Source: Chiridota heheva (Eukaryota > Echinodermata > Holothuroidea > Apodida > Chiridotidae). Taken from it: 64,000 bases of DNA. Shown here piece by piece: positions 4,940-59,227 of the stretch. The position numbers and the translations under genes were made by a program. Where the stretch lies: the NCBI GenBank assembly GCA_020152595.1, contig JAIGNY010004303.1, positions 107,501 to 171,500 of the forward strand. Reading direction: 5' to 3'. Below the pieces are notes generated by a model that made no database searches, had not been told where the DNA came from, and saw only the letters and a program-made list of their open reading frames with translations. Positions within the stretch are counted from its first letter, which is position 1. Each line of letters begins with the position of its first letter.

Positions 4940-6172
4940 CTCCCTTTAGCTTACGCATCACATCAGACCTTCTCCCTCTTGGCATCAATCCAACCACTCT
5001 TAGCACTTTCTCCTGGCCGACGTTTCCCCCACTGGGCCACCCCTCCCTACTATTCACCTGGACATCTCCACTCATCACAAAACCCAAACCCACCCTAACC
5101 TTTTCATCAACCTCCACAACTAAATCAAAGACCAACTCTCAAACTATACCTGTATCTATACTGATGGCTCCAAGGAAGACAACAAGACAGCTGCTGCTGC
5201 CGTCATCCAAGACAACACACTCAGTAGCAGGCTTCCCGACTACTAATCCATCTTCTCGGCCGAGGCCAAGGCAATCCTCCTCGCCCTCAACTCTATTAAA
5301 TACTCTCCGCTCAGCCACTTTGCCATCTTCCCCGACTCCAAAGTTGTCCTTACTTCATTACTCAATCTTAAATGGGATAACCCCACATCTCACCGCATCC
5401 TCAGTAAACTCCTTTCGCCCCCCCCCTTCCCCCCTCCGTAGAAAACATATTATTTTCTTCTGGATACCCAGCCATGTTGGCATCCCTGGAAATAACAGGG
5501 CTGATGCAGCTGCTAAGCTTGCCCTCACCCTTCCCCCTACCCCTTTTCCCAAAACCCTTTCTGACATCAAACTGCTTAAGCTTTCTTGTTTGAGGCCGCT
5601 GGCAAACCTCATGGGACTCCCAAATTGATAACAAACTACACGTCATCTAGCCCACCATTCCGATCAAAGCCACCATTCACAACCTATCCCATGTCGACAA
5701 CCTCCACATTACCCGCCTTAGAATAGGTCACACCCACCTCACTCACTCCCACCTCCTTACTAGCTCCCCCACCCCTCTGCAACAAGTGCCATTGATCCCT
5801 CACAGTCCATCACATTCTCCTTGCTTGCCCCCTGTACAACCTTCCCAGAGCTTTCCTTGCTGCCCACAACTCAGTAGCCGAGCTCTTCCAAAAAACCCTT
5901 CGGATAAAATTATCTCCTTCCTTCTTCATGTTTCCCTATACAACCATATTTAGTCCTCCTTTCCCACCCTTTCTCTCTCTCTACATTATTTTTTTACCCA
6001 TACACCTCCTCTCTCGATCCCAGCTCTCTGGTTTTAGTTCTCGTGTTTTTTTCAATCTGCCCCTGTTTACTCTCCTTCCTACCTCTGGAATGATCTAAAC
6101 GCTCAGGCACAATTTGGCCCTTGCTGTTGTGGTGCCGTTAAACTTTTATCAAACAAACAAACAAACAAACAA
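4940..6172 (+). mobile_element. LINE 3' end: RNase H domain, zinc knuckle and (AAAC)n tail (truncated)
   Basis: This is a 5'-truncated non-LTR retrotransposon on the plus strand. The RNase HI signature is readable across frames: YTDGSKED near 5158 (first Asp), AEAKAILLALNSI near 5263 (Glu), FPDSK near 5333 (Asp), then HVGIPGNNRADAAAKLA near 5475 (last Asp). A stop follows shortly after the first motif, and the frame changes around the C run at 5417-5427. A cysteine-histidine knuckle of the CNKC...HHILLACP type lies at about 5778-5840. The 3' end has GGTGCCGTTAAAC followed by CAAACAAACAAAC (6128-6170). RNase H after the reverse transcriptase points to the I/R1/LOA-type lineages. It is inactive. 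A second copy with the same tail lies at 59.6-60.2 kb. Confidence 0.78.
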
Positions 6173-16015: not shown

Positions 16016-17539
16016 CTTCACCTATATGAGTTTGATGTTTTAAGTTTTTCTTAAATAGGTATATGACAGTATGTCTTGTTGTCAGTAGTTGATCATAATT
16101 TGTCTTGGTCTCAGCTCACAGCAACTAGCCTAGCCTCGTTGACTGTGATAAAGTAACAGAATAGGGACCATTAACGTTAGGCCACATCTGTGTTGTGCTA
16201 GTCTTTAGTACGTTAGTATGGTACTGTAGTCTGTTGTGTTACTGGTCTTGGGCTGTAGAATTAGTGCTAGTTTAACACTCGATAGGTCTAACTTAGAAAC
16301 TGAAAAAAATGAAGAAACTCGAAGTCAGGACTGGAGCCTGGAGATGGGTGTCTAACGTTAGGAAATTCATAGACTATATCCGAGATGTTAGGTTCGAAGT
16401 TCATGCAGCTAGGCCTATCAGTAATAAATTATATCATATTTTGTTTTCGCAAAGAAAGGGCCTTTGCCTAATGTAATTGTTAGTAGGCTAACTGTTTTCG
16501 TTGTCAGAAATATCGGCATGGTTATGAATATCCCGCAAAACTCTTAAGTATATATTTTTGAGTTGGACTCGAAATTTTACCCTGTCAATATCTAGGCCTA
16601 ACGATAGTAACCTACAGTAGGCTAGTTAGATAACATCTCCCTCTACAGACCCCTAGCTTTGCTTTTTTATACACAATTTTTGGCATGCACCTGAAATATG
16701 CCAAGAGGATTTTTTCTATTATAAACATAAAGTATTGAAGGATTAAATTTCTGGAATAGCCAATTACAAAATCATTGTCAAAAGCCGGCTGCTTTTCTAC
16801 AAGTTAAAGGTATATGGACAAAATGATAGAGATTTTTGTATGCACCATAAAGAGTTTTCTGTCATTCTGAACAGAAGTCTTTAATTTATGTTAAACATAA
16901 GTGTAGTTTCCAAATTGTGGCTAATAGAAGTTTGACAACTTTTTTATTGTATCCAAAAAATTTGAATTTTGATAGAGAGGACCACTTACAAATTTCTAGA
17001 GCGATTCTTCAAATTTCAATCATAAATCTAGGTCAATATTTAGGACAATCTACAGTACATTAGACTGTTCCTTCCTGCTTATGACTCAAATTTTTCCACA
17101 TCATATTCAACTGCTACCATACAAGAAACTTTGGAGGATTTAGTATCAATTAATAAGTTTTTCTGTCGTGATATCACAAATTTTCAATAAACTTTGCATA
17201 ATTATTTTAAAATAAGGTTTTCATGATTTAAAATGCTGTAAAATGGTCAATTTTTACCTGATTGTGATGAAATATTTTGCTGTTTTCATAGCTTTATTTT
17301 TTTCTCCAGAAGCTCAAGTTGGTAGATTACTTAAACAAATCAGATCAAATCCAGTACAGTTTGTAATTTTCATGTGATTTAATGACAAATTTACATGTCT
17401 TCTTCATCCTTTAACCATCAAAATTTCAATTCTGTAAAATGCCTTTTTTTCCTAGTTCTTTGCCATTTTGTTTATGATTTTTGCAACCAGAAAACCGTTA
17501 AGTGGTTCCGATGCATTCTTTTATTGTTGGTTGATTTTC
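16016..17539. other. Non-coding stretch, nothing recognised
   Basis: No gene, tandem repeat or terminal repeat was identified. Several AGGCCTA motifs occur around 16,400-16,630. Confidence 0.4.
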
Positions 17540-19000
17540 AAGTTTCACACAAAATGGCATTGCACATCATGAAATATGCTAAAACAAAAAACACATATTC
17601 ATAAGCCATGCCCACCATGCGTGTCAATGAAATAGAACCTGTTGACAAAACTTGTATGATGCAAAACGTGCATGCGGTTGCACATTTTTCACTCACATTT
17701 AAGAATTTTACGTAAAGCCCCACCTACACACTATCAAACCAATAGGTCACATATACAGACCATAACTCACCTAATGTACCATGTGTGCGATGTTTTTTGT
17801 AGTACTTTCACACTGAGGCGCATATATTAGTGATACAAGCTGCTGACAAAAGAAGCATGTACACAATAACTGAAAATAACATGCAAGTATGATGCAAACA
17901 GACATATGGTTGCTATAAATTTTCACTTTTTAAAATTATTTTATTTTATGTTAACCTTCCCCCCCCCCTCCCCCTTTCTCTTCATTAAGCAACATGTCTG
18001 ACATCACAACCAAAAACAAACAATGGGCTATCTGGTACAACATTATGTCCTGTATCCGATGTTTGTTCTGGAGTTGCTGTGTTAGTAATCTCTTTTCAGC
18101 AAAACCATACATGCCCAACATGTATGATATTCAACAATTTTGTACTATGAATATGTTTATACTAGCTAACAACATCATTATACTAAGTATGAATCAAAAC
18201 AGACATGTAGTTGTTAAAATATGAGCATTTGAAGATTTTTAAATTAAGCCCTACCTATTCATTGATATGCATCACATCACCACAAAACCAATAGGGCAGA
18301 TATATGGATCATGGGCTATCTGTGTACCACACATGACATGAATCCAGTTTATCATTTTTCAGATATTATATTAACCAGCTCTTTTCAGCAACATCATGAT
18401 AAGCCCCTGCCCTGCCCACTATGCATGTTAATAAAATTCAACAATTTTGTTTTCTGAACATATACACACCAGCTAACATCATAAATAAACCAAATATGAA
18501 ACATAAGAGGCATGTGTAATTGTTAAATATGAGCATTTCAAGATTTTTATATTAGGCCCATGCCTACTCATTAATATGCATGACATCACCAAAAACAATA
18601 GGGCACATCTACAGACCATGGGTTACATGTATGTGTACCAAATATTACATAAATGCAGTTGATCGTTCTTAAGATGCTGTGCTAACAAGCTTGTTTCAGG
18701 AAAATCATAATAAGCCCCGCCTTCTATGCATGCATACTGATGAATTTTAATGTTTTTATACCATGAATACATACACTAGTTAACAATATAAATGCAATGA
18801 ACAATAATGAATACGAAACTAAACAGATATGTGGTTGTTAAATTATGAGCATTTCAATATTCTAAAATTAAGCCCTGCCTACTCATTAATATGCATGACA
18901 TCACCAAAAACAATAAAGCACATATACATATCATGGGCTGTGTACTAAATATGACATTAATCCAGAGTATCGTTCTTGAGATATTGTGTTAATAAGCTTA
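17540..19000 (+). repeat. Degenerate ~310-bp tandem repeat
   Basis: A block reading AAGCCCxxCCTA...CAATAGGGCACATATA...CATGGGCTA...TGTACCA recurs near 17,716, 18,246, 18,555 and 18,868. The last three are spaced about 310 bases apart, and the first interval is larger. Units also share ATTAATATGCATGACATCACC and ATGAGCATTTCA. Divergence between units is high, so the array is old. Open frames inside are short and not conserved. Confidence 0.75.
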
Positions 19001-19090
19001 CTGTTACAGACACACACATATACATACATACATACATTCATCAATTAAAGACACTAGTGTTAGTCTACATGCTTTCAACTGGATTTGACC

Positions 19091-19345
19091 ATAAGTCGGT
19101 CACCTTTTAGAGGCCTAAATGTCTACATTCGCTTAGAAACTTTTGCACGAAAATGTTGCAAATGGGGAGGAAATTTCGTAGAAAAGATCATTCCCAAGTT
19201 TGAAATATATGTATCGTGCATACATAGGCTACAGGGTGGTGTTTACTTAAGCACAAATCGTAGCATGTTTTCAAAGACAAAGATTCTTTGATATTGAAAA
19301 TGCCCTAATGACGGAATACTCGAATTGAACCAATTGTTGTACATG
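19091..19345 (+). repeat. Dispersed repeat, copy 2 of 2
   Basis: Second copy of the repeat at 8391-8640. It lies just left of the kilobase tandem array. Confidence 0.7.
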
Positions 19346-19514
19346 TTTTCTGCTCTGTACATCCCTCCAAGTTAAGGACAAGCGCAAGCTTTTTTTCTAT
19401 GGAGTACAAAACTCCAGTTCTTGCACCGTCTTACTGTAACTAAGTTACAGTAGGTATGCTACGGTCTGAAGATCTGTATGCAGGCTAGGCCTGTAGTAGC
19501 ATGTTCAATTATTG

Positions 19515-24471: not shown

Positions 24472-24931
24472 GACTACTAATGGTTTTTTATACCTTTCTA
24501 TGGGATTTAAGACTTTGGTGTAATCCTAAACATAATCAACAAGTATTTGTTTGTTTTTTGTAATATAGTGGCAATATGGCTGCCGTTTTCATAATGGCTG
24601 CCATAGATAAATATTTATATATCAGAATTAAGTGTTACATATGTGTTTGGTACTAAAACTTAACTAAATAGCTGCTTTTTTTTCTTTCTTTGCGGTATAT
24701 TCTATTATTTAGCAAAACACAATATGTGATATTATCCAATATGGCTGCCAAATTTAAGATGGCTGCCTTGTAATATCCAACAGGATTGCAATACAAATTT
24801 CCTTTACCTTGAATTTTCTCAGTTGCCAATTAAAAGAATAATGGACATATGTTATAATTCTTTGATGAGCTTTTTCAAGCAACTGTTCAGGATGGCAAAA
24901 TGAAACAGGATGGCGTGAAATATGGTAGGCC

Positions 24932-26140
24932 TAGTGCTGTTGGCCTAATTGATGTGGGCCTGATTGCTCTTGGCCTAATTGCCGTAGACCTAATTGCTGT
25001 AGGCTTAATTGCTGTGGGTCTAATTGCTGTGGGTCTAATTGCTGTGGGCCTAATTGCTGTGGGTCTAATTGCTGTGGGTCTAATTGCTGTAGGCATTATT
25101 GCTGTGGGTTTAATTGCTGAAGGCCTAATTGCTGTGGGTCTAATTGATGTGGGTCTGATTGCTCTTGGCCTAATTGCCGTAGGCCTAATTGCTATGGGTC
25201 TAATTGCTGTATGCCTAATTGCTGTGGGTCTAATTGCTGTAGGCCTAATTGCTGTAGGCCTAACTGCTGTAGGCTTAATTGCTGTGGGTCTAATTGCTGT
25301 GGGTCTAATTGCTGTGGGCCTAATTGCTCTTGGCCTAATTGCCGTAGACCTAATTGCTGTAGGCTTAATTGCTGTGGGTCTAATTGCTGTGGGTCTAATT
25401 GCTGTGGGCCTAATTGCTGTGGGTCTAATTGCTGTGGGTCTAATTGCTGTAGGCATTATTGCTGTGGGTTTAATTGCTGAAGGCCTAATTGCTGTGGGTC
25501 TAATTGATGTGGGTCTGATTGCTCTTGGCCTAATTGCCGTAGGCCTAATTGCTATGGGTCTAATTGCTGTATGCCTAATTGCTGTGGGTCTAATTGCTGT
25601 AGGCCTAATTGCTGTAGGCCTAACTGCTGTAGGCTTAATTGCTGTGGGTCTAATTGCTGTGGGTCTAATTGCTGTGGGCCTAATTGCTGTGGGTCTAATT
25701 GCTGTGGGTCTAATTGCTGTAGGCCTAATTGCTGTGGGTCTAATTGCTGTGGGTCTAATTGCTGTAGGCCTAATTGCTGTAGGCCTAATTGTTGTGGGTC
25801 TAATGCTGTAGGCCTAATTGCTGTAGGCCTAATTGCTGTGGGTCTAATTGCTGTAGGCCTAATTGCTGTGGGTCTAATTGCTGTGGGTCTAATTGCTGTA
25901 GGCTTAATTGCTATGGGTCTAATTGCTGTGGGTCTAATTGCTGTGGGTCTAATTGCTGTAGGCCTAATTGCTGTAGGCCTAATTGCTGTGGGTCTAATTG
26001 CTGTGGGTCTAATTGCTGTAGGCCTTATTGTTGTAGGCCTAATTGCTGTGGGTTTAATTGCTGTAGGCCTAATTGCTGTGGGTTCAATTTCCGTGGGCCT
26101 AATTGCTGTAGGCCTAATTGCTGTAGGCCTATTTACTATA
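24932..26140 (+). repeat. 15-bp minisatellite with 360-bp higher-order repeat
   Basis: About 80 copies of a 15-bp unit (CTAATTGCTGTGGGT and variants GTAGGC, GTGGGC) fill this segment. Lines of variants at 24,961-25,320 recur in the same order at 25,321-25,680, so a 24-unit (360-bp) block was duplicated as a whole. The unit is a multiple of three and free of stops in several frames, giving frames of 190-303 codons on both strands (VGLIA, PNCCG and RPTAI repeats). These are consequences of the repeat, not evidence of a protein. Confidence 0.95.
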
Positions 26141-27403
26141 TAAAATGGCAGCTCTAATGGTGTGTGGATGAAATCTCCGTGCTGTCCTAACTGTATCGTG
26201 ATAATGTGCAATTGAGCAAATTTAGTTGACTCAACTATAATCAAGTTTTTGAGGGCTGAATCATGATTGATATTAATTTCTAAACTTCTCTGAAGCTAAA
26301 AAGACATTTAAAACTTCGTACAAAAGTTATTCAACTACAAGAAAACATGAATATTCAACGCGCGCGTGGTTGCTAAAGCAAAACAACAATCTCGCGTTCG
26401 TATGATGTCTAGATTGAACGTACTGTAATGTATTTCCCATACGTACAGTGTAAGCGCATGTGCTGGTCAACCGCAGTAGGTTCACAGTATTAAGCTGTTT
26501 TCGAATTATATGTATACATTTATTGACTGATTAAGTACATATGAATTGTTGCCAGAGGTTAGTAATTTTTGGACAAAACCTTGGATGTAATTGCAATTGA
26601 CTAAGATATCTACTTCTCCAGAAAATCTCTTCTCAATATTTCTTTGAATATGACTTGATTTTGCTTTGGATCAATGTTTATTTTATTGCGTTTGAGCTTA
26701 GGTCAAGCTCACTAAGTTGTGGAAACCAGTTTGAAACTGTTCAACAATGATTCATTATTTCCTTTTGCGATGCTAGTAAGTCTACTGCATCTACCAGTTC
26801 ACTTTGTTTTTGATGAATGGAGTAATTTATGTTGGTATCAAATTCACTTAAGAAGAATTGTTCACCAAAACTTACGACACCTTTTATCATCCCAATGTGA
26901 TCTACTGGATAATGGACGATTGATTTAATAGATAGCTTTTATAGGTATCCTAGTTATATTTATTCTTTCTAATGTATAGTTGGATCAAAGCATACATCAT
27001 TGGTTTAGCTAAAATCTGATTGATATTTTCTTCTCGTTGTTAAGGATAAGGAGATAACATACTGTATATGATACAACAATATATACATTATTTTACCTGG
27101 ACGAAAGTTGAATACACCACAGGATAAATGACTATGCAAATAAGTGGTGTGTCCCAGATATAACCGTTCCGAGCACAACTTCTGAGCCTAGATTATACAT
27201 TTAATTCTAAAAGGAGCGCGAGCACCAAAAATTGAGGGCGCTCAGTTTTTGCAAATTTCACATATTTTTTATCCGCAACAGATCGATAAACTTCATGCTT
27301 CCATAGCCCAAAGCCGATGTGAGACAATGGTTATTTGGATATTAACCAGAAAATTGTTATATCCCGTTGTGTGCTAGATAAGCATTGGATTTTTATATCA
27401 ACT
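26141..27403. other. Non-coding stretch, nothing recognised
   Basis: No recognisable gene or repeat. It lies between the minisatellite and the first SINE. Confidence 0.4.
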
Positions 27404-32274: not shown

Positions 32275-33876
32275 ATGGGTAGGATCTGCGCAATTTACGG
32301 CTGTGGAAACAGTGTAAAGAGGCTGAACAAGTGGTACTCTCATTTATGTGAACTTCATGGTTTAAAGTTTGGTCGTTGTGTATGTAAGCCACCGTTTCAG
32401 TTATTTCCATTCCCTACTGAAACCAAGGACCCAGAACGGAGGAAAACATGGACAAAGCTTGTCAACAGAAAAGGTAAAGATGGGAAAAACTGGCAACCAT
32501 CAAAAGATGATAGAATTTGCTCATTACATTTTGTTGATACAGAGCCAACATCTGCCCACCCAAACTCTTCAGAAAATTTGGGATATGACATGCTGTCAGC
32601 AAAAGCTGCAAAAAGCCACCTCGTAAAAGGGAATTGAAACCATCAATGAAAAAGGACTTAAAACAAACAGCACCAGCTGCAGCTGCTGCACCACCATAGG
32701 AGGTACCTGTTGTTAAAGAGTTTGAGCCTTCAACAGCTGAAGGAACTGATGGTCCTCCTAAGAAAAAAATGAAGCCTCATCTGGAAGAACAATCCTATCA
32801 TGCTCCTGCAACTGATTGTGTAGAATGTGTTGATAAAGCAAAGAAAATCAAAGAACTTGCAAGCAAGGTTGCAAAATTGAAGAAGAAGAAGACACACACT
32901 ACAGTGCAACACACAAATGATTATCCGGTTTTAAAAATTATCTTGAAGAATGACACCACTGTGAAGTCATACACTGGCATACAGTCAAAAGGCCAAGTTT
33001 ATGGCATTGTACCAGTACCTGTTGCCAAATGGAAAGAAGATAAGGTACTGGTGTGGCAGGAAGAAAGAGTCATCCCCAAGGACAACTCCAATAAGGCAGC
33101 TGACCAAGCGTGGACCTGCCCGAACACTCACGGTGAAGGAAGAGTTCCTGTTGGTCCTTCTTAAATTGAGAATGGCCCTCCGATTTCCTTCCTGGCAAGT
33201 TTGTTTTGTGTATCGTCGGGAAGCGCCTCGCAAATATTCAACACATGGGTTAAATAAATTCCTGGCTTTTGAGCTTAACCCACTAATCTTCTGGCCAGAC
33301 AAGAATATCATATTGGAGAAAATGCCTGTGAGCCTTAAGAATAAGTACAAGACATTGAGGTGTACCATAGATTGTCCGGAATTATTTATTGGTCGGCCAC
33401 GAAATTTGGAACTTCAGGCACTAACATGGTCGGACTACAAGCGACATAATACCATCAAGTTTTTGGTTGCCATAGCTCCAAATGGCATGATATCGTTCAT
33501 TTCAAAAGCTTGGGGAGGGAGGGCATCAGATGTTTTAATTACAAAGGAGTCTGTTTTTTTTTTAAATTTAATTGACAAGGGGGATATCATACTTGCTGAC
33601 ATAGGGTTCACCATTAAGGAAAAACTTTTGATGAGACATGCCAAGCTAGAGATCCCACCATCAAGTAAAGAAAGGGAGCAGCAAGCACCAGAAGAGGTTG
33701 CCAGGACAAAGAAAATTGCTAATGTACGAATCCATGTCGAAAGGGCTATCGGGAGAATGAAATGGTTCAAAATCCTCAAGGAGGTTTTACCAATCACCCT
33801 TGTTCCTGTGATAGATGACATTATAACAGTCTGTGCAGCCCTGGTTAACCTCCTACCACCCCTTGTGTCAAAGTGA
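32275..33876 (+). pseudogene. THAP-domain plus DDE_Tnp_4-type transposase (ISL2EU/Harbinger-like), frameshifted
   Basis: The start codon follows a TTTTTCAG acceptor. The first 120 residues form a THAP-like zinc finger: C.IYGCGN near the N-terminus, LFPFP, W, and CSLHF, giving the C2CH pattern that binds DNA in transposon termini. The frame then shifts near 32,625, meets a TAG at 32,698, runs through a lysine-rich, probably coiled stretch (KAKKIKELASKVAKLKKKK), and shifts back around 33,100. The last part (about 33,108-33,876) holds a helix-turn-helix (LLLKLRMALRFPSWQ-like) and an RNase H-fold transposase core. The DDE residues are visible as TIDCPE, ILADIGF and HVERAIGR. THAP plus this core is the usual layout of ISL2EU-type transposases, which cut and paste their own DNA in the nucleus. 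It is recently inactivated, since all three catalytic residues remain. Its own termini were not identified. Confidence 0.8.
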
Positions 33877-40096: not shown

Positions 40097-42030
40097 ATTT
40101 ACGGATGGGGACGAACAGAATATGGAGGTCTTATGGGCAGCATTTCATACCAGCAAAGTCAAAAATAATCCTGAAACTTCAATATATATCAGCAGTATTT
40201 TACCTTATTTCCTGAAAAGGCAAACTCCATTGCAATGAGAATGTTGTTAAGCCCAATCAATGTTGACTTCCTGCATCCTGGACAGCTTCCAGTTATTGCT
40301 TTTGATCAACGTTTGTTTGCACTAGCAAAGCAGGTCCAATGGACGTGGCCAGATACATATGGAGAGGACAAGGTGGTAGTTATGTTTCAAAGACTTCATA
40401 TTGAAATGACAGCTCTAAAGACACTCGGAGACTGGTTGAAGATAGTGGATGAACAAGCGCCCTCGTTGAAGCTAATATTACTACACTAGAAACAAGCGAC
40501 TCTTTCCTCAAGGAGTCACATATAAGTAGAACAAGTCATGCACATCATATAAGTGCTAGAAGTCTCTAATATTAATGCATGGGGCATACAGTGAGTACAT
40601 TGTACATTGGATCAAGAACCAGAAACATTTGACGCTTGCCGCAGTAGGAGAATAGAAGAAAGCTCACAATTTCATTACTGGTTCACAACACTAGAATTTG
40701 AATTAAAAGTCCTGTGCTTTGTAAGATCACTTCGTAACTCAAATTTCAAGCTTTACATTGAAGCTCTAGATAATTTTTTCGTTGTCAAAGTTTGGAGAAT
40801 TACGCTCTGGAAATAAGGCCGACTTAGTGAGATGTCTTTAACAGTATTCATCTACTTCAAAAGAATATAATCCAGAAGTTGATGCTATAATCCTTGATGG
40901 AGCTGCCATTGTGAACATGTTGAAGCCAAATCAAGCTAAAACCTTGCAGGAATATCTGCAAACACAAGTGAACAACAGCAACAAGAAACAAGCGTGGAAA
41001 AGGTACAAGAAGGCATGTAAAGCCGAATACCAAAGTTTCAAGCTAATTGCCAGACTTTTTAATGATTGATGAAAACAGACAGAGACAGAGCTATTTACTT
41101 TCCTTGCTGAACAGTCCGTAACAGTTCAGTGTGAGAAAAGGAAGATCATTACTACAATAGGAAAATTGGTAATATTAAGTTTTTCCAGGGAAGATACAAG
41201 CTTTATATCTGCATGTACACATGAAGAAGCCGACACTAGATTGTCGTTACATGCTGCGGATGCTGCTGCAACTGGACATCATAGAGTAATGCTGCGTACA
41301 GTCGATGCAGATGTGATTGTCTTGTTCACATCTTTGTTTGCTCAGACAAATCTCGATGAATTATGGTTAGCATTTGGCACAGGGAAGCTTTTCAAATTCA
41401 TACCAGCTCACCCTATAGCCCAGTCATTAGCTTCTGATAAAACAGCATCTCTTCTTATGTTTCACGCTTTCACTGGTTGTGATCAAACTTCATTCTTCTT
41501 AAGTAGAGGGGGAAAGACAGCTTGGGAGACATTAAACGTCTTTCCAGATGCGGTACAAGCTGTTGCTGCCACTGGACGAAACCCTCCTACTGCACAGATT
41601 CTGACCCATTGGATGCCAACAATCGAGCGGTGCATTGTTCTATTGTATGATCGGACAAGTTCTTGCACAAATGTAGACAAAGCTAGAAAAGAAAAGTTCA
41701 CCCAGAAAGGGAAGGCCATAGAGTTGTTTCCCCTACAGCAGCTGCTTTGTACCAACATGTTCAACGAGCAGCATATCAAGCAGGACATTGCTGGGGACAA
41801 GCAATACTTCACATGCCAGAATTACCTGATCCATGTCACTGGGGTGGATTCGAGACACTTCACAATTGTGGCAACCTCTTTAGTCAGCGTTATCTGAGGC
41901 ATCAAAGCCTTATCAAAAAACTTTTTCAAGTGTGGCTGCAATATTACAAGAGGATGTTTAGGAGCATTTAAATGTGTTAAAGCTGACATGGTATTTACAT
42001 TATATCGCAAATGCAAAGGAGGATGTGAAC
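40097..42030 (+). pseudogene. Academ-like transposon protein, C-terminal half (element 1)
   Basis: This continues the gene broken at 29,915. In order it shows FTDGDEQNMEVLWAAFH (40,099), a stop near 40,236, HPGQLPVIAFDQRLFALAK and DKVVVMFQRLHIEMTALKTLG (40,273-40,434), and several degraded segments. Next is EVDAIILDGAAIVNMLKP (40,877-40,932), corresponding to the first acidic strand of a FEN1-like PIN fold. The second acidic strand is missing, apparently by a deletion near 41,000-41,060. Then come HEEADTRLSLHAADAA (41,221), RTVDADVIVLF (41,300), FHAFTGCDQTS and GGKTAW (41,461-41,526). A damaged CXC-type cluster (CGCNITRGC...KCVKAD) lies at 41,931-42,030 in another frame. It is inactive. It is only distantly similar to the protein at 52.8-57.5 kb, so the two elements are different families of one superfamily. 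Confidence 0.75.
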
Positions 42031-42689
42031 GTACTTAGGAAGCATTTATGTTGTGAGGTTATGCTAGACATGTGTTTTAGACCAAATTGCTTTGTGTGAG
42101 AAGCAAGAATTGATAGTAAAAAATAACTTGATCCATGCATCTGGGATTGGAAAAACCAACAACAATTGTTGGATAGTGTTATAATTAATCATGGCAACAC
42201 GTTGACTGAAAACTACCTCTGCAAAGTCAATACAGGAACTTCTTAAAGAGAAGAGCAAGAAGATGTCGAAGATATGTCAAGACTGTGCTGGTGTTAACAT
42301 CATATTGCAAATGGAAGGAGACTGTGAATGCAATTCCATTTGTGCAGAAAATTGTTTCCTAGAACTGCGTGTCAGACAGCTAGGTATTGGTCTCTTTTCA
42401 TCTCTCTTAACTAGTACAGTATTATACTTACATTGCTTTTTGTAAATTAGCATTCATAGAATATATTAGGCAAACAAAAGCACCCAACTCTTGTATAAAT
42501 TAACAGCCATTTTGAATTTGCAGTCATATTGGAACTACACATAGTATCATATGTCCACTAATAAGCTGCTTTATCAACCGAACTGAAATATAGTACACTG
42601 ATCAATTGTAATTTGAATCCTTGTTTATTGAAATAGCAGACATAATTGCTGAAATGGCGTTCGTTTTACCAAAATGTTCAATTTACAGC
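42031..42689. other. Spacer holding the putative right arm of element 1
   Basis: Contains a short inverted match (about 42,502-42,533) to the arm-like block at 24.74 kb. No gene is recognised; the cysteine-containing frame at 42,263 is too short to assign. Confidence 0.35.
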
Positions 42690-51916: not shown

Positions 51917-51959
51917 ACATAGTCTGGTTGCAAATGGCCAAAAAATGACAAGTGCTAAA

Positions 51960-52650
51960 CATTTTGGGTACAAGTCGGGAAATGATTTTAATTAATAGTT
52001 TAGGTGTATAAGAGTCTAAAAAAACCTGTTTCCACCAAAAAAAATTATTGAGGTGGCCGCCATTTCTAATTTCAAAATGGCCGCCAAATAGAGCATATTT
52101 TATAGAAATATGAGTATTTTGGCATGTTTTAGGTTAGGTTCACATTGAATAACTGGTAGAAATGTTGATCTTATATAGAATAAAAAGTCTTAACAAGAAT
52201 ATATATGTTCAGCAGTTGGCAGCCATCTTGAAATTCAAAATGGCCGCCATTTTCCAGATAATTTAAACAGAACATATTTTCACAGTAACTTTTAAGTTTA
52301 AAGATGATGATAGATAATAGTTCATTCACAGCTGTTACGAAATAAAATATAGAGCGTGTATCATTCAGAATTTTTTTGGAAACCTCGTCATCTTTGTTTT
52401 CAAAATGGCCCCCAAAGGTTTGTTTCTACTTCGAACTTTAGACAAAACATCAAAAAGTTGTTCCATTCAGTATATCTTGAACTTCTCAGTATATTGAAAG
52501 AAAATTAAGGTGGGTGTATGTAAATTTGATTCAAAGTAAAATAAAACCTGGTGATTTAATTATTCGGATAAATTTGATGTTGGTGGCCATTTTTAGTTCC
52601 AAAATGGCGGAATGGCGGCCATATTTGATTTTGAAATGGATAGCTTTCAT
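51960..52650. promoter_or_regulatory. Left subterminal arm with repeated ATGGCGGCC motifs
   Basis: At least five ATGGCGGCC or GGCCGCCAT motifs, often as converging pairs around TTCAAAATGG, occur here (near 52,053, 52,078, 52,220, 52,242 and 52,604-52,620). The right arm (58,400-58,620) has the inverted equivalents. Repeated subterminal motifs usually bind the transposase. The core also resembles the YY1 site (AANATGGCGGC), so host-factor binding is another possibility. Confidence 0.5.
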
Positions 52651-52780
52651 AAATTATTTCCCAAACACCATTGCTGGAAGCTGACTTCAACTGTTCAACT
52701 TGAGATTATTTAAAGGAAAACATAGCTTGCTACGATATGAAAACAAAACTCATACAAGGTATATTTGAGAAATGACTGCA

Positions 52781-55700
52781 TCATAGTATATTAAAAGGCA
52801 AAGATTGTGGATTTCGGCAGTACTCTGTGCATGAACATCCTCGAGTGCAGGGAACTTTCATGGAAGTACACTTGCATCTGCGTGTTGCACACCGCAAACC
52901 CTGGAGAGGACAACTGCATGCTATAAGTTCTGGCCACGTTTCTAGCATTGAGTCCACTGTGAGAAGGCGCGGTTTCAGGATTCCATCTGTACTAAGAAAC
53001 CAGCCGCTCTCCTCTGGAGATGGTAGTGATGGATTTTGTTCAAGAGCCATCTTCCATACACATGTCTGGTAATGGGCTCTTCTAATGTGCAAATGTAGAG
53101 CATCTGCAGTAGGTGGTAGTGTCTCAACATTTTTTTTCACCTTGTGAAAAAATGCACTTCTGATTTCTTGTATTTTACTTGATTCAGTAGATGGATCATA
53201 CAATTTGCAAACAAATGCTTCCGCATCAGACATAGCCTTTTTATCAGGAACTTGAGCTTCACCTAACAGCTCAAGCAGTTGTGGGTGCTTTACAAATTCC
53301 TTCCACGCCGATTTTTTGCCTATTCCAGCAAATTGGCTTGTTGTGTCACTGCCTGTAAGGGCATGAAATGCAAGCAATGATGCTCTTGCCTTGTCATCAA
53401 TTTGGATATGATGAACAGGAATGAAAGATTGTTTTTGCTGTCCCCCTTGCATCCACACTTGTTGACATAGGTTGGGCATATGATATACAAGAAGCACCAA
53501 CACATCAGTATCACGGCATACAATATTAAGTAGTTGAAATCCTGAGTTCTTTGCATCTTGAGCATGAAGTAGGATACGCGTGTCAGCCTCCTCGTGGTTT
53601 GATCGCAGATTTGACACATCTCTGCCAGACGAAGACCATGCCTCATCTGAGTTTGAGAAACCACCGCCAAGAACCAGCTCCTTGTTAGGATCTTCACAGG
53701 GATGATTTATCATTTGTGTGCAGAGAAAGTTTGCTAGACTTTCTTTGTTTTTCCCTAGTGTAATGAATCTTTCCCAGCTGCCAATTTTCTGATCTCTGCT
53801 GGATACTCTGGTTTCTATCCCCTTGTTTTTTCCACTTGCACGCTTGTTTCGTGTACCACCTTTAATGGAGTTGTCAGATATTGATCAAAAACAATGTCCA
53901 CCCTGTTGCATGTCTCAGAAAAATGTTTGTAAATTGACTTTTGAAAGTTGTCACACCATTCACCAAAGGTTTTGCTCCTATATGATTGCCAAGAGACTGA
54001 ATTACTGCCATAGCATCCACAATAGTACATGTAGGACTGTTGCTGACTGGTGGTAGATTCTGTGCTTTACCTTGATCTAGAATTTTGCCTAAATCTGATT
54101 TACTTGATGGATATCTCAGCTTTTCATCAACAGTTGCTATTGATAAAGGCACAGGTGAGAGCTCACGTTCCAGCAACCCATCTATATCAACTTCACGTCC
54201 AGCATCTAATGCAACAATCACTTGACGTAAAAGATTGATGCGTGCCTTGGTAGTGGTTGTTTTTACTTTATCCACATTTACAGTATGACTGTACATTGTA
54301 CCAAACGTGTTAAGTTTCTGTCTTTTGATTTTATCATGGAACTTTGTTGTCTTTTTGATGAGTCTGTCATTCACAAAGTCGTGTATTAACTTCTTTCCTG
54401 TTTTCTCTGCTTTCACAAAGTCATTCTTCACATCAGTACTAGCAACATCTCCTGTGGTGATTGATATCAGGTCTGACGAATCATTGGAAAATACATCAAA
54501 GCGTTCAAATTCTTGAACAAGTTTTGTGATATTTTTCTGATCTCTTTCCATTCGCTTAGGTCCCAGATCTTTATGTTGCAAATCCGTCTCACTCGTCACA
54601 TGATACATTTTCTTTGTATCTTCGGCGAGCTGAGCCCGTTCATTGTATGTAAGACACCAACGTTCTCGTGCTGAATCTGTGCGGGTAATGCCAACTAAAC
54701 CACCGGCAACTTTGCCCCGTTTGTTGATATGCTCAAGTGCTTGGTCATCAGGGATTTGATTGAATCTTTGTGAAGTTTCTTTAGTACCGAAGTCACCATC
54801 TGCAAAGCTTTGGTAAACCTCTGGTGCTGTCTCCTGTAGCATCTTCATATCTGCTAGAAAAATTATACCCCACCTGGTGTAATTAACATGGTCAAAGAGA
54901 GCAAACCAGGGTAACATTTCAGCTAGCGACGAAAGGTACAGCGCCCAGTCTCCATCTCGAAGAGCACGGGTAAATCTCAGAAGAATAGTAACAAGATGCA
55001 TATACTTCCTCAAAAATTGGAATGTTGTTAGGTCCTTGTGGTCAGCATCAAATTCATCAAGAAGTGTTAATATGGGTACAATATCTTCAATGAATAATGC
55101 CAGTGTCGATTCTATCTGCTCATCATCATCTTTGACAAACCCTTCAATAATCTTCCCTGCTGTTTCTCTCAACTTGCTTCCTAACTCCTTCTCATTCTCT
55201 TGTGCCCAAACAATAAACTTTGGCCAAAGAATTGTCCAAAGTGCTTCAAGTGTAAGTTTATGTGCACGTATAACTTTGTTCCACACCTTTCCTTTGAGAA
55301 TATTCTCTGCTGTGTTTTCTCCAAATACTCCACTTTCTACCCATATATCATTGAGACCAGCTCCTTGCATGAACTGACCAATCACTTTTGAAAAATTCAT
55401 CTGTGTGTGGAAGCCTCCTAACATGATAACAAAATCTTTGCAATCTTCCAACTTCTCCCATTGAAGCATTTTAGCTTTGTTGTAGAGTGCTTCATCAAAG
55501 GTAATTACTGTGTATGTTGCATTTAGCTTCTTTGTCATTGCTTGACAATTTTTCATCACTGTCCAAATCGTGTCATAATCATGAGCAGGAGCATTGATTA
55601 TTGGAAAAGGCCCAACTTCAGTTTGTGGCAAATCATTCTTTGACACTTTCTGGTTGAATCCACTCCAGGCAGGTACTTGTTGGTTTTCCTGATTTTCTTG

Positions 55701-57490
55701 TCGCAAAAGAATCCATGTCATGTCCATGCAGAATGCTTTGGCTATCATTTCCTTGTCTGGGTCGTACCAAGTGAGCTGTACATCTTTCGGCATCACTGGT
55801 TCTAGTTTGCTGCAAGCATGTTTGAGTTTTGAAGCTCACTCATTTCTGATGGAAGACTTGTTTTGGATCTGTTGGATCTTAGCTTAACATTTATTTCTCT
55901 TTTTGGCTCATTTGGTGCTTTTTTTGCGAAGAGCCACATATTGTGTTGCATGAAAAGTGTCCATACCACTGAGTGTTTCTTCATTGATATCGATATTGTC
56001 GTCTGCATAACGGACATATCCACAATTTTCCCAAGTGGTAAAATTACGTGGTATCATCACTTTTCCATGGTCATTGTAACGCTGAAGAGCATCATCGGCA
56101 ATGGCTTTGTCAATCTGAATAACATGCTCATAGCTGATAGAATGACCTGCTGCATGGAGAAGTTTTATGAGCCCTTTTGACCTCGTGGCCTGGTGAATAG
56201 TAACGCCAAGACCAATATGCTTTGGTGTTAGTTTCTGCCCTCCAGAAGCAAGAAAATGATGTCTTGACAAATACTGAGAATTTTCGTTCTAAGAGCATTC
56301 TCATTTTGACTCTCATTTTCAACATCAAATACATCTTCATTGCAGAGAAGACGAATAAGAAAGTAAAGATTATCTGGCACTACCATCTGCGCATGTTCCT
56401 CATCAATTCCTCCAACGAAGTCATGACTAGCTGTAGCTTCAATGTCCCGACGTAGTTTTACAGCCACTTTAAAAATCCCGCTTAAAATATCAGTGTCGTC
56501 ATTTTCTACTTGGTTACTCATAGAAGCCTCACAAATATCTATTCCTTGCACCTCTGTCATATCTTCTACAAATTTTTCCATAGCCATATCTTGAGCCACA
56601 GAAGGACATACTAGCTGCGGATCTGTAGTACACAAGGGTTGAACAAAAATCACATTATCACCAAGATACCTCTGTATTTTCTCCTTGAACCTATTACTTC
56701 TGTAAACCCCTGAAACCATTGCAAAATCTGTGAGAAGCATATTAGAATATTGTTCCCAAATGCTTGTTAATGTATAAATGTGTCCTTCAGCAACACCTTT
56801 TTCAAGATCAGCCATTACATTTTCAAAGCAAATTGTTTCTGGAATGTTATCTTGGTTTTCTTTAAGCTTACTGTACTTCTTCAAAAAACATGTATAACAT
56901 TTCAAATGATACTTGGCCTCTGCAGCTATAAGATCATGTACTCCAGCTAATCTGTGTCTCATTACGCTATCAAACTGAGCGAGGGTCAGGACTTTTTCTG
57001 ATGTTGGGAAAGTCTGAACTTGACGTAAATGAGAGTAAGGTATATCATCCTGGCAGTACATGCACTTGTTCCAGTCTACCGAAGGCAGCGATGATCTTCT
57101 CGATCTTGATGAATTTTTCAGATTAGTTTCATCTTCCAGGGGAGTTGACTCTCTAGATGAAATGGTAATATTTCGCTGACCTTTGCTTTTGAGACGATTT
57201 ATGTGAGCTTGGTTTGTAAATACGCTATAGCAGGGTCTATGCCAAAGAACATTTTTGTCAGTTTCCCGTAGGTTGACTATTTTCAAACGGTCTAGTGCGT
57301 CTATAAACTTAGTGTCATTGTATTTCTCTCTTTCCAGGGCACTTTCAATTACTCGGGCAATTCCTTCTGGTGTAGCCGACGACAAAAGATGTTTTTTCTT
57401 AGGGAACCTAACCTCTTGACACAAGATGCAATTTCCCCACTCAATTTCAGACTCTGTCACTCTTTTTCTGATTAAAGCTGCAGACTCCAT
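52781..57490 (-). CDS. Academ-like transposon protein: zinc modules, central domain, FEN1/XPG-like nuclease, CXC cluster
   Basis: This is one gene of about 1,570 codons, with all modules collinear across five frame breaks. The chosen ATG (57,490) gives MESAALIRKRV and is followed at residue ~20 by CILC, then WHRPCYSVF (~83), CMYCQDD (~143) and KYHLKCYTCF (~190), two zinc-binding modules. The middle contains GGQKLTPKHIGLGVTIHQ and VITFDEALYNKAKML...FVIMLGGFHTQM, where a transposase RNase H-like core may sit. A FEN1-like PIN nuclease follows: TIVDAMAVIQSL (~1158), VDIVFDQYL, HEEADTR (~1300), CRDTDVLVLL (~1327), then GSDTTSQFAGIGKKSAW (~1383), the helix-hairpin-helix. The end is CSC...RCKC...GCSCTEYCRN (~1530), a tesmin-like CXC DNA-binding cluster. 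Frame changes lie near 56,245, 55,920, 55,820, 53,980 and 53,815, each at or beside a homopolymer; no in-frame stop lies within the correct frames. It is either intact and mis-sequenced or very recently broken. It presumably mobilises its own element. Confidence 0.8.
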
Positions 57491-57571
57491 CTTGATAATC
57501 TTGGAGGGAAACTTAAAAGATGTTTTACTCCCTTTGTAAGAAACCAAACTGATGTATTTTGTCAAATGTAG

Positions 57572-57579
57572 GATATATA
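57572..57579 (-). promoter_or_regulatory. Candidate TATA box of element 2 gene
   Basis: ATATATAT on the minus strand lies about 85 bases before the chosen ATG. The frame is open upstream to another ATG at 57,613, but that start would lie ahead of this box and lacks family support. Confidence 0.3.
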
Positions 57580-57613
57580 TGCAATCATAAGATTTAACAA
57601 GGCACTGGTCCAT

Positions 57614-58765
57614 GGGTTAAACCAATACAAAATTGAGTGGTATTAAAAGGATTTTGAAAAGCTCATTAGAACAAAAATTAAAAGGAGGACAGGGATACAA
57701 ATTTCAGACAAATACAAGTTGTTATTGCCCAGTCGTACCTCTATCTATAACATACACTCAGTCCTTCCCCTCCATGAAGCCTTTGTTAAAGTAAGATACT
57801 AACCAAATGTCAGGTATTTTGAAAACATGTTCAAACAAACGGCCATGTACAATTTCTAAGGTGTATACTCATTGCTAGAAGTTTGCTAGTAAATCTAACA
57901 TTGTCAGATTGAATTGAATTGTAGTTAGGTCTCGGATTATTATCTTAAGGTAACGTCAGGCATGCATTTGATGGTAATTTCCTACTTAATGCAAATTTAT
58001 ATGAATACAATTATATTCTTAAGTATTTTACATTTGTCGTAGAACTGATATATGTAGGTACAACAGTAACACTGAACATGATGTTTTACCTTGTTAGCGG
58101 ATAATTTCGATCTGAACATACATAGCACATATTTTCTATATTCATTTGACATGTTTAATAAACCTAGCCTTGCACCTATCTTTAAAAATGCAGATATCTT
58201 ACCTCTATTTTGCATTAATCTTGAGAGCACATGCGTGTGACATATATTACTGCAGCAGTGCTAAAATTTCTGTCACATGGTTGCCAGATGCATCTGATAT
58301 AAAACTATCAAAATGTTGCAAACTTAGGAGTTAATCAAATTGTTTGCAAAATTGTTCAGTTAGAAGTAAAATTTAAAAATATATTATTTTTGACAATTTA
58401 TTATAGCGGCCATTTTGATTTTCTTAATCGCCATTTTGTTTTTAGCTGATTGCCATTTTTAGATAAATGAGAAACATCTAAAATTGTCTTATAAAGTCAT
58501 CTACCATAAAAAAAGCTAACATAATACCTACAATAGTCCTGTATCTAACATAAAAGTTGAGATAATTTATATATACTATGTTCAATAAGGCGACCATTTT
58601 GAAATTCAAAATGGCGGCCAAAAAAAGAAAAGAAAAATTGGAAACAGGTATTTTTGTTATCTCCTATACCTATTTTATCTATATGGACCTGTTTCCAGCT
58701 TGTACCCAAAATGTTTAGCAAATCGATTTAGAAGCATCTTTTTTTTGCTATTTGCAACCAGACTA
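57614..58765. promoter_or_regulatory. Element 2 upstream region and right subterminal arm
   Basis: The part nearest the gene is AT-rich with no recognised sites. From about 58,400 to 58,765 it mirrors the left arm: GCGGCCATTTTGATTTTC, AATCGCCATTTTG, GCGACCATTTTGAAATTC, AAAATGGCGGCC, then TTGTACCCAAAATGTTTAGC and the terminus ATTTGCAACCAGACTA. Confidence 0.6.
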
Positions 58766-59227
58766 ACAACAAATGTGTGATATATTACGTCAACAGCAAA
58801 CTACAAATAGATATCCATTAACCAAATGAAGGCTCACAAGGAGCACAACAAGCCAAAAATTACTGTTCAACTGTGAGCCATGATAATAAGAATAATAAAA
58901 AAAAAGGAATGAGAAGAAAATTATAAGGAATGCTGTTAGTAAAACAACATAAGTAAACAATCCGAAGACAGTAATAAACTTGAATTAAAGAAATAGCTCG
59001 AGCTTTTAACCTCTTATATTCTTTTTGTTTTTGTTGATGATATAAATTTCAGTGCGAAGATTTCAGCACACGTTACGCATAGGCTAGGCTAGCCTAGCGT
59101 CGCAAGTTACTATAGCTACCGCTATTGAAATTTTGACCACATTCTGGTTCCCTATCAATAAAAAAAATATCGTCTGCATGTACCGTACACGTTCTGTACT
59201 GCCGGCCATGTCATGCCATATGTATGC

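Follow-up and report, generated by a model that had tools for sequence, protein, structure and literature searches.

The stretch of the Chiridota heheva genome analysed here (hereafter the window; 64,000 nucleotides, positions 107501 to 171500 of contig C3500, JAIGNY010004303.1, in an assembly of 1.10 Gb and 3,744 contigs) raises the question of whether the segment at 51920-58765 is a complete transposon, and whether its single protein joins a transposase to a domain like that of the flap endonuclease FEN1. It was found that the segment is a full-length DNA transposon of 6,846 bp, with its gene on the minus strand. It is probably one copy of a young cut-and-paste family of the XPG-nuclease lineage of the Academ superfamily (AcademX-like), which would make it a novel example of a known element type rather than a novel type of thing.

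The element is bounded by a terminal inverted repeat (TIR), TAGTCTGGTTGCAAAT and its inverse at 51920 and 58765, which is perfect over the first 16 bp and 90% identical over 29 bp; a repeat search paired the left TIR (51920-51948, plus strand) with the right TIR (58737-58765, minus strand). The trinucleotide ACA stands on either side of the element, at 51917-51919 and 58766-58768, as a target-site duplication (TSD), and the repeat search also gave further subterminal inverted arms of 56 bp at 82% and 82 bp at 72% identity. The inverted termini, the subterminal arms and the 3-bp flanking repeat of the original prediction are thus all present as described, whereas its term "near-complete" gives way to full length.

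Genome searches with the left end (201-bp query) and the right end (210-bp query) yielded 166 and 173 candidate places, respectively, and the best 40 on each side were scored. All of the 40 scored left ends covered the whole query at 94-100% identity, and for 26 of them an inverted partner was present among the scored right ends: 25 pairs span 6,596-6,884 bp, and one spans 5,221 bp. No expansion of miniature inverted-repeat transposable elements was seen among these 26 pairs, drawn from the best 40 ends of each side. Apart from the element in the window, the 20 copies with the best left-end matches were fetched, and 19 of these have both ends exactly at element positions 1 and 6846, with three of the 19 (L010, L013 and L022) split by internal deletions; the other copy, L024, contains only the first 357 bp of the element. 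Because 19 of the 20 fetched copies end at the same two bases, the boundaries are not due to chance. A direct duplication of 3 bp was found in 19 of the 20 two-ended elements (the window's and the 19 copies), and in L015, the right end of which is mutated, the duplication is 2 bp. The family is young, of moderately high copy number, and recently multiplied.

Two subterminal clusters of GGCGGCCATTTTG..CAAAATGGC-type repeats were delimited by repeat search and motif count: the left cluster (52054-52620) has six copies of the octamer AAAATGGC, on both strands, and the right cluster (58397-58620) has four. These ten are all of the octamers in the element, compared to 13 in the remaining 57,154 bp of the window. 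The AAAATGGC / AAAATGGCGGC subterminal repeats, at 52074-52608 and 58409-58615, resemble the vertebrate YY1 site, and a role as binding sites of the transposase or as part of a promoter is conceivable.

The transposase-nuclease gene (52781-57616, minus strand) was evaluated from open reading frames, tblastn with the frames of other copies, a majority-column frame, and a list of insertions and deletions (indels). The column majority of 20 elements is a single intronless frame that runs for 1,613 codons with no stop; the predicted single gene was therefore borne out, but not its predicted length of about 1,570 codons. In the window copy the frame is broken: there are eight frame-changing indels relative to the majority, of which seven are shared with other elements and three lie within 13 bases and cancel out.

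The alternative that survives best is that such breaks are real inherited decay and that the family is dead, as opposed to the breaks being partly assembly error in near-identical copies, and we regard this as a serious possibility, although not the one toward which we lean. The frame is broken in all of the 20 elements read, which weighs against a young family with a functional gene, and 40 of the 150 distinct frame-changing indels in the gene are common to at least two elements (110 are private). Furthermore, two related elements, L029 and L030, keep unbroken frames of 5.3-5.5 kb in the same assembly, which is therefore not uniformly poor. Taken together, the sharing of indels and these unbroken frames keep real inherited decay open. 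On the other hand, 212 of the 294 one-nucleotide indels over the whole element are in or beside homopolymers of at least 3 nucleotides, as are 33% of all positions, and recurrent error is expected there; this excess points to recurrent assembly error or slippage. The shared indels also group the copies in conflicting ways. Substitutions relative to the column majority amount to merely 0.44-0.91% in 15 of the 20 elements (1.7-3.9% in the other five), an estimate of age that leans young, as the elements were picked for left ends close to that of the window. Lastly, the synonymous share is higher in variants of at least two copies (42 of 109) than in private variants (159 of 609; Fisher P = 0.006), which is expected if the transposing copies were selected for the protein.

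The domain order from the N terminus is two Cys/His modules (recognised by eye), DUF6589, a PIN/FEN1-like region and a CXC cluster. The predicted order of zinc modules, transposase core, flap endonuclease and CXC thus stood, with the zinc modules at the level of motifs and the PIN/FEN1 region supported by statistics that are weak. Putative zinc module 1 (CxxC .. HxxC, 57230-57430; this and the following features are on the minus strand) had no match in the domain library, and putative zinc module 2 (CxxC .. HxxCxxC) is at 56888-57064. The candidate DDE core is the DUF6589 (PF20231) region at 54615-55748, a range taken from the genome search, with a Pfam E value of 4.4e-8 and 32.7 bits relative to a cut-off of 27. 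In all rows of the alignment (the element and L029 to L033), this core contains a D in TFDEALY/AGDAKTY (55482-55502), GxxH (55401-55418) and D..E..NK (54720-54749). Upstream, a DNxD motif placed by eye, in DDNIDINEE (55977-56003), likely holds the first catalytic acid of the transposase. Over the genome, 26 of the 27 listed DUF6589 matches, which come from the family of the element and from others, exceed the cut-off.

The tesmin/TSO1-like CXC cluster (52817-52918) was identified by cysteine spacing, and the Pfam TCR model gave E values of 0.5 for the window copy and 0.014 for the relative L032, both under the cut-off. In the Pfam and NCBIfam scans, DUF6589 alone exceeded the cut-off, in the core, and no XPG or helicase match was obtained; for helicases, this holds for Pfam at E ≤ 10 in the element and the tested relatives. 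A PDB search with the window frame alone gave two unrelated matches (E > 1). From its motifs, the protein is predicted to bind zinc, to recognise the element ends and to carry out DDE chemistry.

The comparison of the C-terminal region was made with relatives in the same genome. L029 (1,767 residues) and L030 (1,824 residues) are intact single frames with the same domain order as the element, and L032 is a second copy of L030 (~98% identical); no TIRs were evident in the 7.4-7.5 kb fetched for L029 and L030. L126 has a 997-residue frame, of which 873 residues are within the fetched stretch; it comprises PIN, CXC and the portion of the core that starts at the second D, and it had no Pfam match, DUF6589 included. 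In BLASTP, the element gave collinear alignments with all three: that with L126 (E = 3.7e-78) covers the core as well as PIN and CXC, and those with L029 (8e-22) and L030 (3e-17) start in the final part of the core (the E motif) and run through PIN and CXC; the identity in these three comparisons is 23-27%. The lineages are 22-31% identical to the element or to each other, apart from L029 and L030, which are 43% identical. A further DUF6589 lineage, L033 (C1790:471000-477000), has a degraded PIN-like region in which several catalytic acids are lost, and no CXC tail was found in its frames. A recent capture of a host FEN1 gene was ruled out by the presence of the PIN-CXC order in lineages this divergent.

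The region at 53303-54032 (minus strand), with the motifs TCTIVDAM, DIVFDQYL, NHEEADTR, CRDTDVL and GSDTTSQFAGIGKKSAW, is probably related to the PIN and helix-three-turn-helix (H3TH) parts of FEN1/XPG nucleases, as judged by profile comparisons and alignments. In the numbering of the FEN1 active site, residues D34, D86, E160, D179, D181 and D233 of human FEN1 correspond to D, D, E, D, D and D of the element in three full-length alignments, and the H3TH signature of the FEN1 family is also in register. The first PIN profile (seven rows, five of them kept by the filter of the program) was compared with a reference set of 81 FEN1 proteins, one human and 80 archaeal, and gave a score of 37.6 (P = 4.7e-4, probability 33%). 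The highest score among 150 column shuffles was 24.3, the reversed profile scored 13.7, and dropping single rows gave P values from 3.5e-4 to 1.1e-3. In a second PIN alignment, L126 was included and the rows of the window and L032 were left out. When L033 was also removed, the resulting five-row form had a score of 28.0 (P = 0.01), which exceeded the highest of 200 shuffles (25.9), and omission of L126 raised the score to 34.9.

Several results weigh against this relation. FEN1 E158 aligns with H or R beside the E-E-A-D of the element (the H of HEEAD), so that one of the seven acids goes unmatched in the computed alignments; judged by eye, E158 and E160 could be paired with E and D if the HEEAD motif were moved two residues. 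The first profile gave only P = 0.027 in global mode, and the second alignment with six rows scored lower than the first profile (29.7, P = 0.0062). Its five-row form fell to 25.5 (P = 0.023) without L013 and still scored 22.4 when reversed. Human FEN1 alone matched the profile with a probability of 0.8%, over the stretch from DxD to H3TH. In PDB profile searches, Exo1 was the second of two matches (E = 1.6, over the H3TH), after the unrelated cereblon, and in another search YacP, a PIN-type nuclease, was second and third of five (E = 0.41, over the N-terminal strands), after an unrelated acetyltransferase. The Exo1 and YacP matches both cover the expected motifs, but neither is significant, and the two profiles share rows. 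Of the domain models suggested at the outset, that for CXC fell below the cut-off, and Pfam XPG_I, like XPG_N, gave no match at E ≤ 10 in the tested proteins of the element and its relatives. Over the genome XPG_I had five matches, none at a listed copy, and all five look like exons of host genes. The suggested structure prediction, run with AlphaFold on the 367-residue frame of the window and a two-row alignment, gave a mean pLDDT of 32 and no usable model, and it spoke neither for nor against the PIN fold.

These results bear on a second alternative, namely that the C-terminal region is PIN-like in its motifs but is no active nuclease, being instead an inherited ancestral fold for DNA binding or dimerisation, or that it has no PIN fold. 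This we consider unlikely. It would account for the weakness of the FEN1 similarity (P values of 3.5e-4 to 0.023, depending on the rows included), for the one catalytic acid out of register, and for the loss of acids in L033. However, the element, L030 and L126 all retain the acidic motifs, as does L029, where the first acid is E instead of D, although most of these are only 22-31% identical to one another. Of the 11 columns that are invariant in alignment A1, seven (H161, E163, D189, G243, D245, S248 and F250) are within the PIN motifs. The PIN region of the element is read here as a FEN1-like domain that probably has nuclease activity, a prediction made from sequence.

Whether the element belongs to AcademX was considered separately from its architecture. 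Kojima 2020 reportedly described an XPG-type nuclease downstream of the DDE core in the AcademX transposase protein. According to passages of one paper (PMC10045372), the TSD is 9-10 bp in AcademH and 3-4 bp in AcademX, a difference tied to helicase and nuclease. The element, with its 3-bp TSD, its DDE-type transposase and probable nuclease in one protein, and its consistently ended TIRs, resembles AcademX, and it is unlike AcademH in both TSD length and the absence of a helicase match, although the two would share a superfamily if the Academ assignment is right. Passages of another paper (PMC10294476) state that, within the molluscs, Academ occurs almost only in bivalves, where it is abundant, and report 100 curated full-length consensus elements, with a mean length of 5,565 bp in a bivalve library; the element, at 6,846 bp, is likewise long. 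We infer membership of AcademX because the length of the TSD, the probable nuclease and the architecture fit. The membership in the XPG lineage of Academ that had been predicted is therefore plausible, short of proof.

Other comparisons are with protein families. The middle region of the window copy resembles Pfam PF20231 (DUF6589), a model that has no PIN and no CXC and no assigned function, and that leaves L126 unmatched. For the FEN1/EXO1/XPG family, represented by the human and archaeal FEN1 proteins, all but one of the seven catalytic acids fall in register with acids of the element, as does the H3TH signature; the region of the element differs in being embedded in a transposase and in escaping Pfam XPG_I. 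The tail shares cysteine spacing with CxC pairs with Tesmin/TSO1 CXC (PF03638), but it scores below the Pfam cut-off.

A third alternative, which we regard as quite improbable, is that the same architecture defines a separate DDE superfamily (DUF6589/PIN/CXC), with the 3-bp TSD and the nuclease agreeing with AcademX through convergence or loose naming. What weighs against the Academ assignment is that the element was set beside Academ by published description rather than by sequence; in addition, DUF6589 is unnamed in Pfam and appeared in no paper found in the literature search, and the element is merely 23-31% identical to the other compared lineages of the genome (L029 and L030 being 43% identical mutually). 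In the same literature search, AcademX came up in one paper, and Academ, XPG and Repbase together in none. The agreement with the AcademX of PMC10045372, in its available passages, argues the other way, and the abundance of Academ in bivalves may do so too. We retain the assignment to AcademX, although that name has less support than the description of the element as working like a DDE transposon to which a structure-specific nuclease is fused.

The flanks of the elements were joined and compared with the window and the fetched loci. Only self-matches were obtained, apart from repeat matches for L011, L021, L023 and L026. For L011, repeat units in the window at 18285-18541 and 18592-18857 (minus strand) align across the junction at 71-72% identity, with one TAG there instead of two, as does a repeat unit within L011 itself at 80% identity, and the L026 junction is crossed by a neighbouring repeat unit at 77% identity. 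The empty sites of L011 and L026 are paralogous, not allelic. The boundaries given in the original prediction held in this comparison, in that 19 of the 20 copies and the paralogous empty sites fit the edges of the element. The window at 18124-18857 (minus strand) consists of diverged units of the same repeat that hosts the element in L011, and Tandem Repeats Finder, run on 17500-19500, did not report them. A segmental or satellite duplication in place of a transposon, which the numerous near-identical copies might bring to mind, has a negligible chance of being correct and was ruled out by the sharp common ends, the 3-bp duplications, the empty sites, and flanks that are alike only within repeats.

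The TSDs and the termini of the copies show that the ends are conserved and that insertion occurs with a stagger of 3 bp. A scheme for transposition can be proposed in which one protein would do all of the work. The N-terminal Cys/His modules and the CXC tail would bind the ends, probably at the AAAATGGC-type subterminal repeats and the TIR, and the DUF6589 region, as a DDE transposase, would cut the 3' ends and join them to the target at positions 3 bp apart. The PIN domain, FEN1-like and part of the same protein, may cut the other (5') strand at the ends or trim 5' flaps on an intermediate. The processing of intermediates or flaps by the nuclease is the leading hypothesis for this domain, the activity and the step in transposition being predicted. 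The full division of labour, with the DDE core making the 3' cuts and joins and the fused flap endonuclease making the 5' cuts on the non-transferred strand or removing short 5' flaps, is put forward tentatively, as a possibility that we hold with some doubt. The Tn7 proteins TnsA and TnsB form a two-nuclease scheme. If the proposed division is true, the element would be a eukaryotic parallel to that scheme, built from a structure-specific repair nuclease, and it would be independent of host FEN1 for the 5'-strand step. The study of how a transposase with a fused flap nuclease moves DNA would have a good base in this young family, with its exact boundaries and empty sites, and in the two intact homologous frames (L029 and L030) of the same genome. 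The nuclease region is invisible to the Pfam XPG model, and such proteins are therefore probably unnamed in animal annotations.

Outside of the main element, a tblastn search in which the L126 protein was the query revealed a decayed relic of a related DDE-PIN element of the L126 type at 40271-42032 (plus strand; E = 2.6e-18 and 1.8e-38). The PIN fragment of this relic, used as a genome query, gave 798 candidate places, of which 141 were scored, with long open frames of up to 1,184 residues at many of those scored; these places are a very large expansion of the DDE-PIN protein class. Viral contigs were searched with four sequences taken from the element and related elements, and no relative was found.

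Three other features of the window were recorded. A 291-residue frame at 33001-33873 (plus strand) matches DDE_Tnp_4 (PF13359; E = 1.7e-44) and is probably a Harbinger-like transposase. A long minisatellite-like stretch at 24887-26244 has several frames open on both strands (AVGLI / PTAIR repeats). Finally, RNase H (PF00075) was matched weakly, at E = 0.0038 and below the cut-off, by a fragment at 5164-5625 (plus strand), which is probably a remnant of a retroelement.

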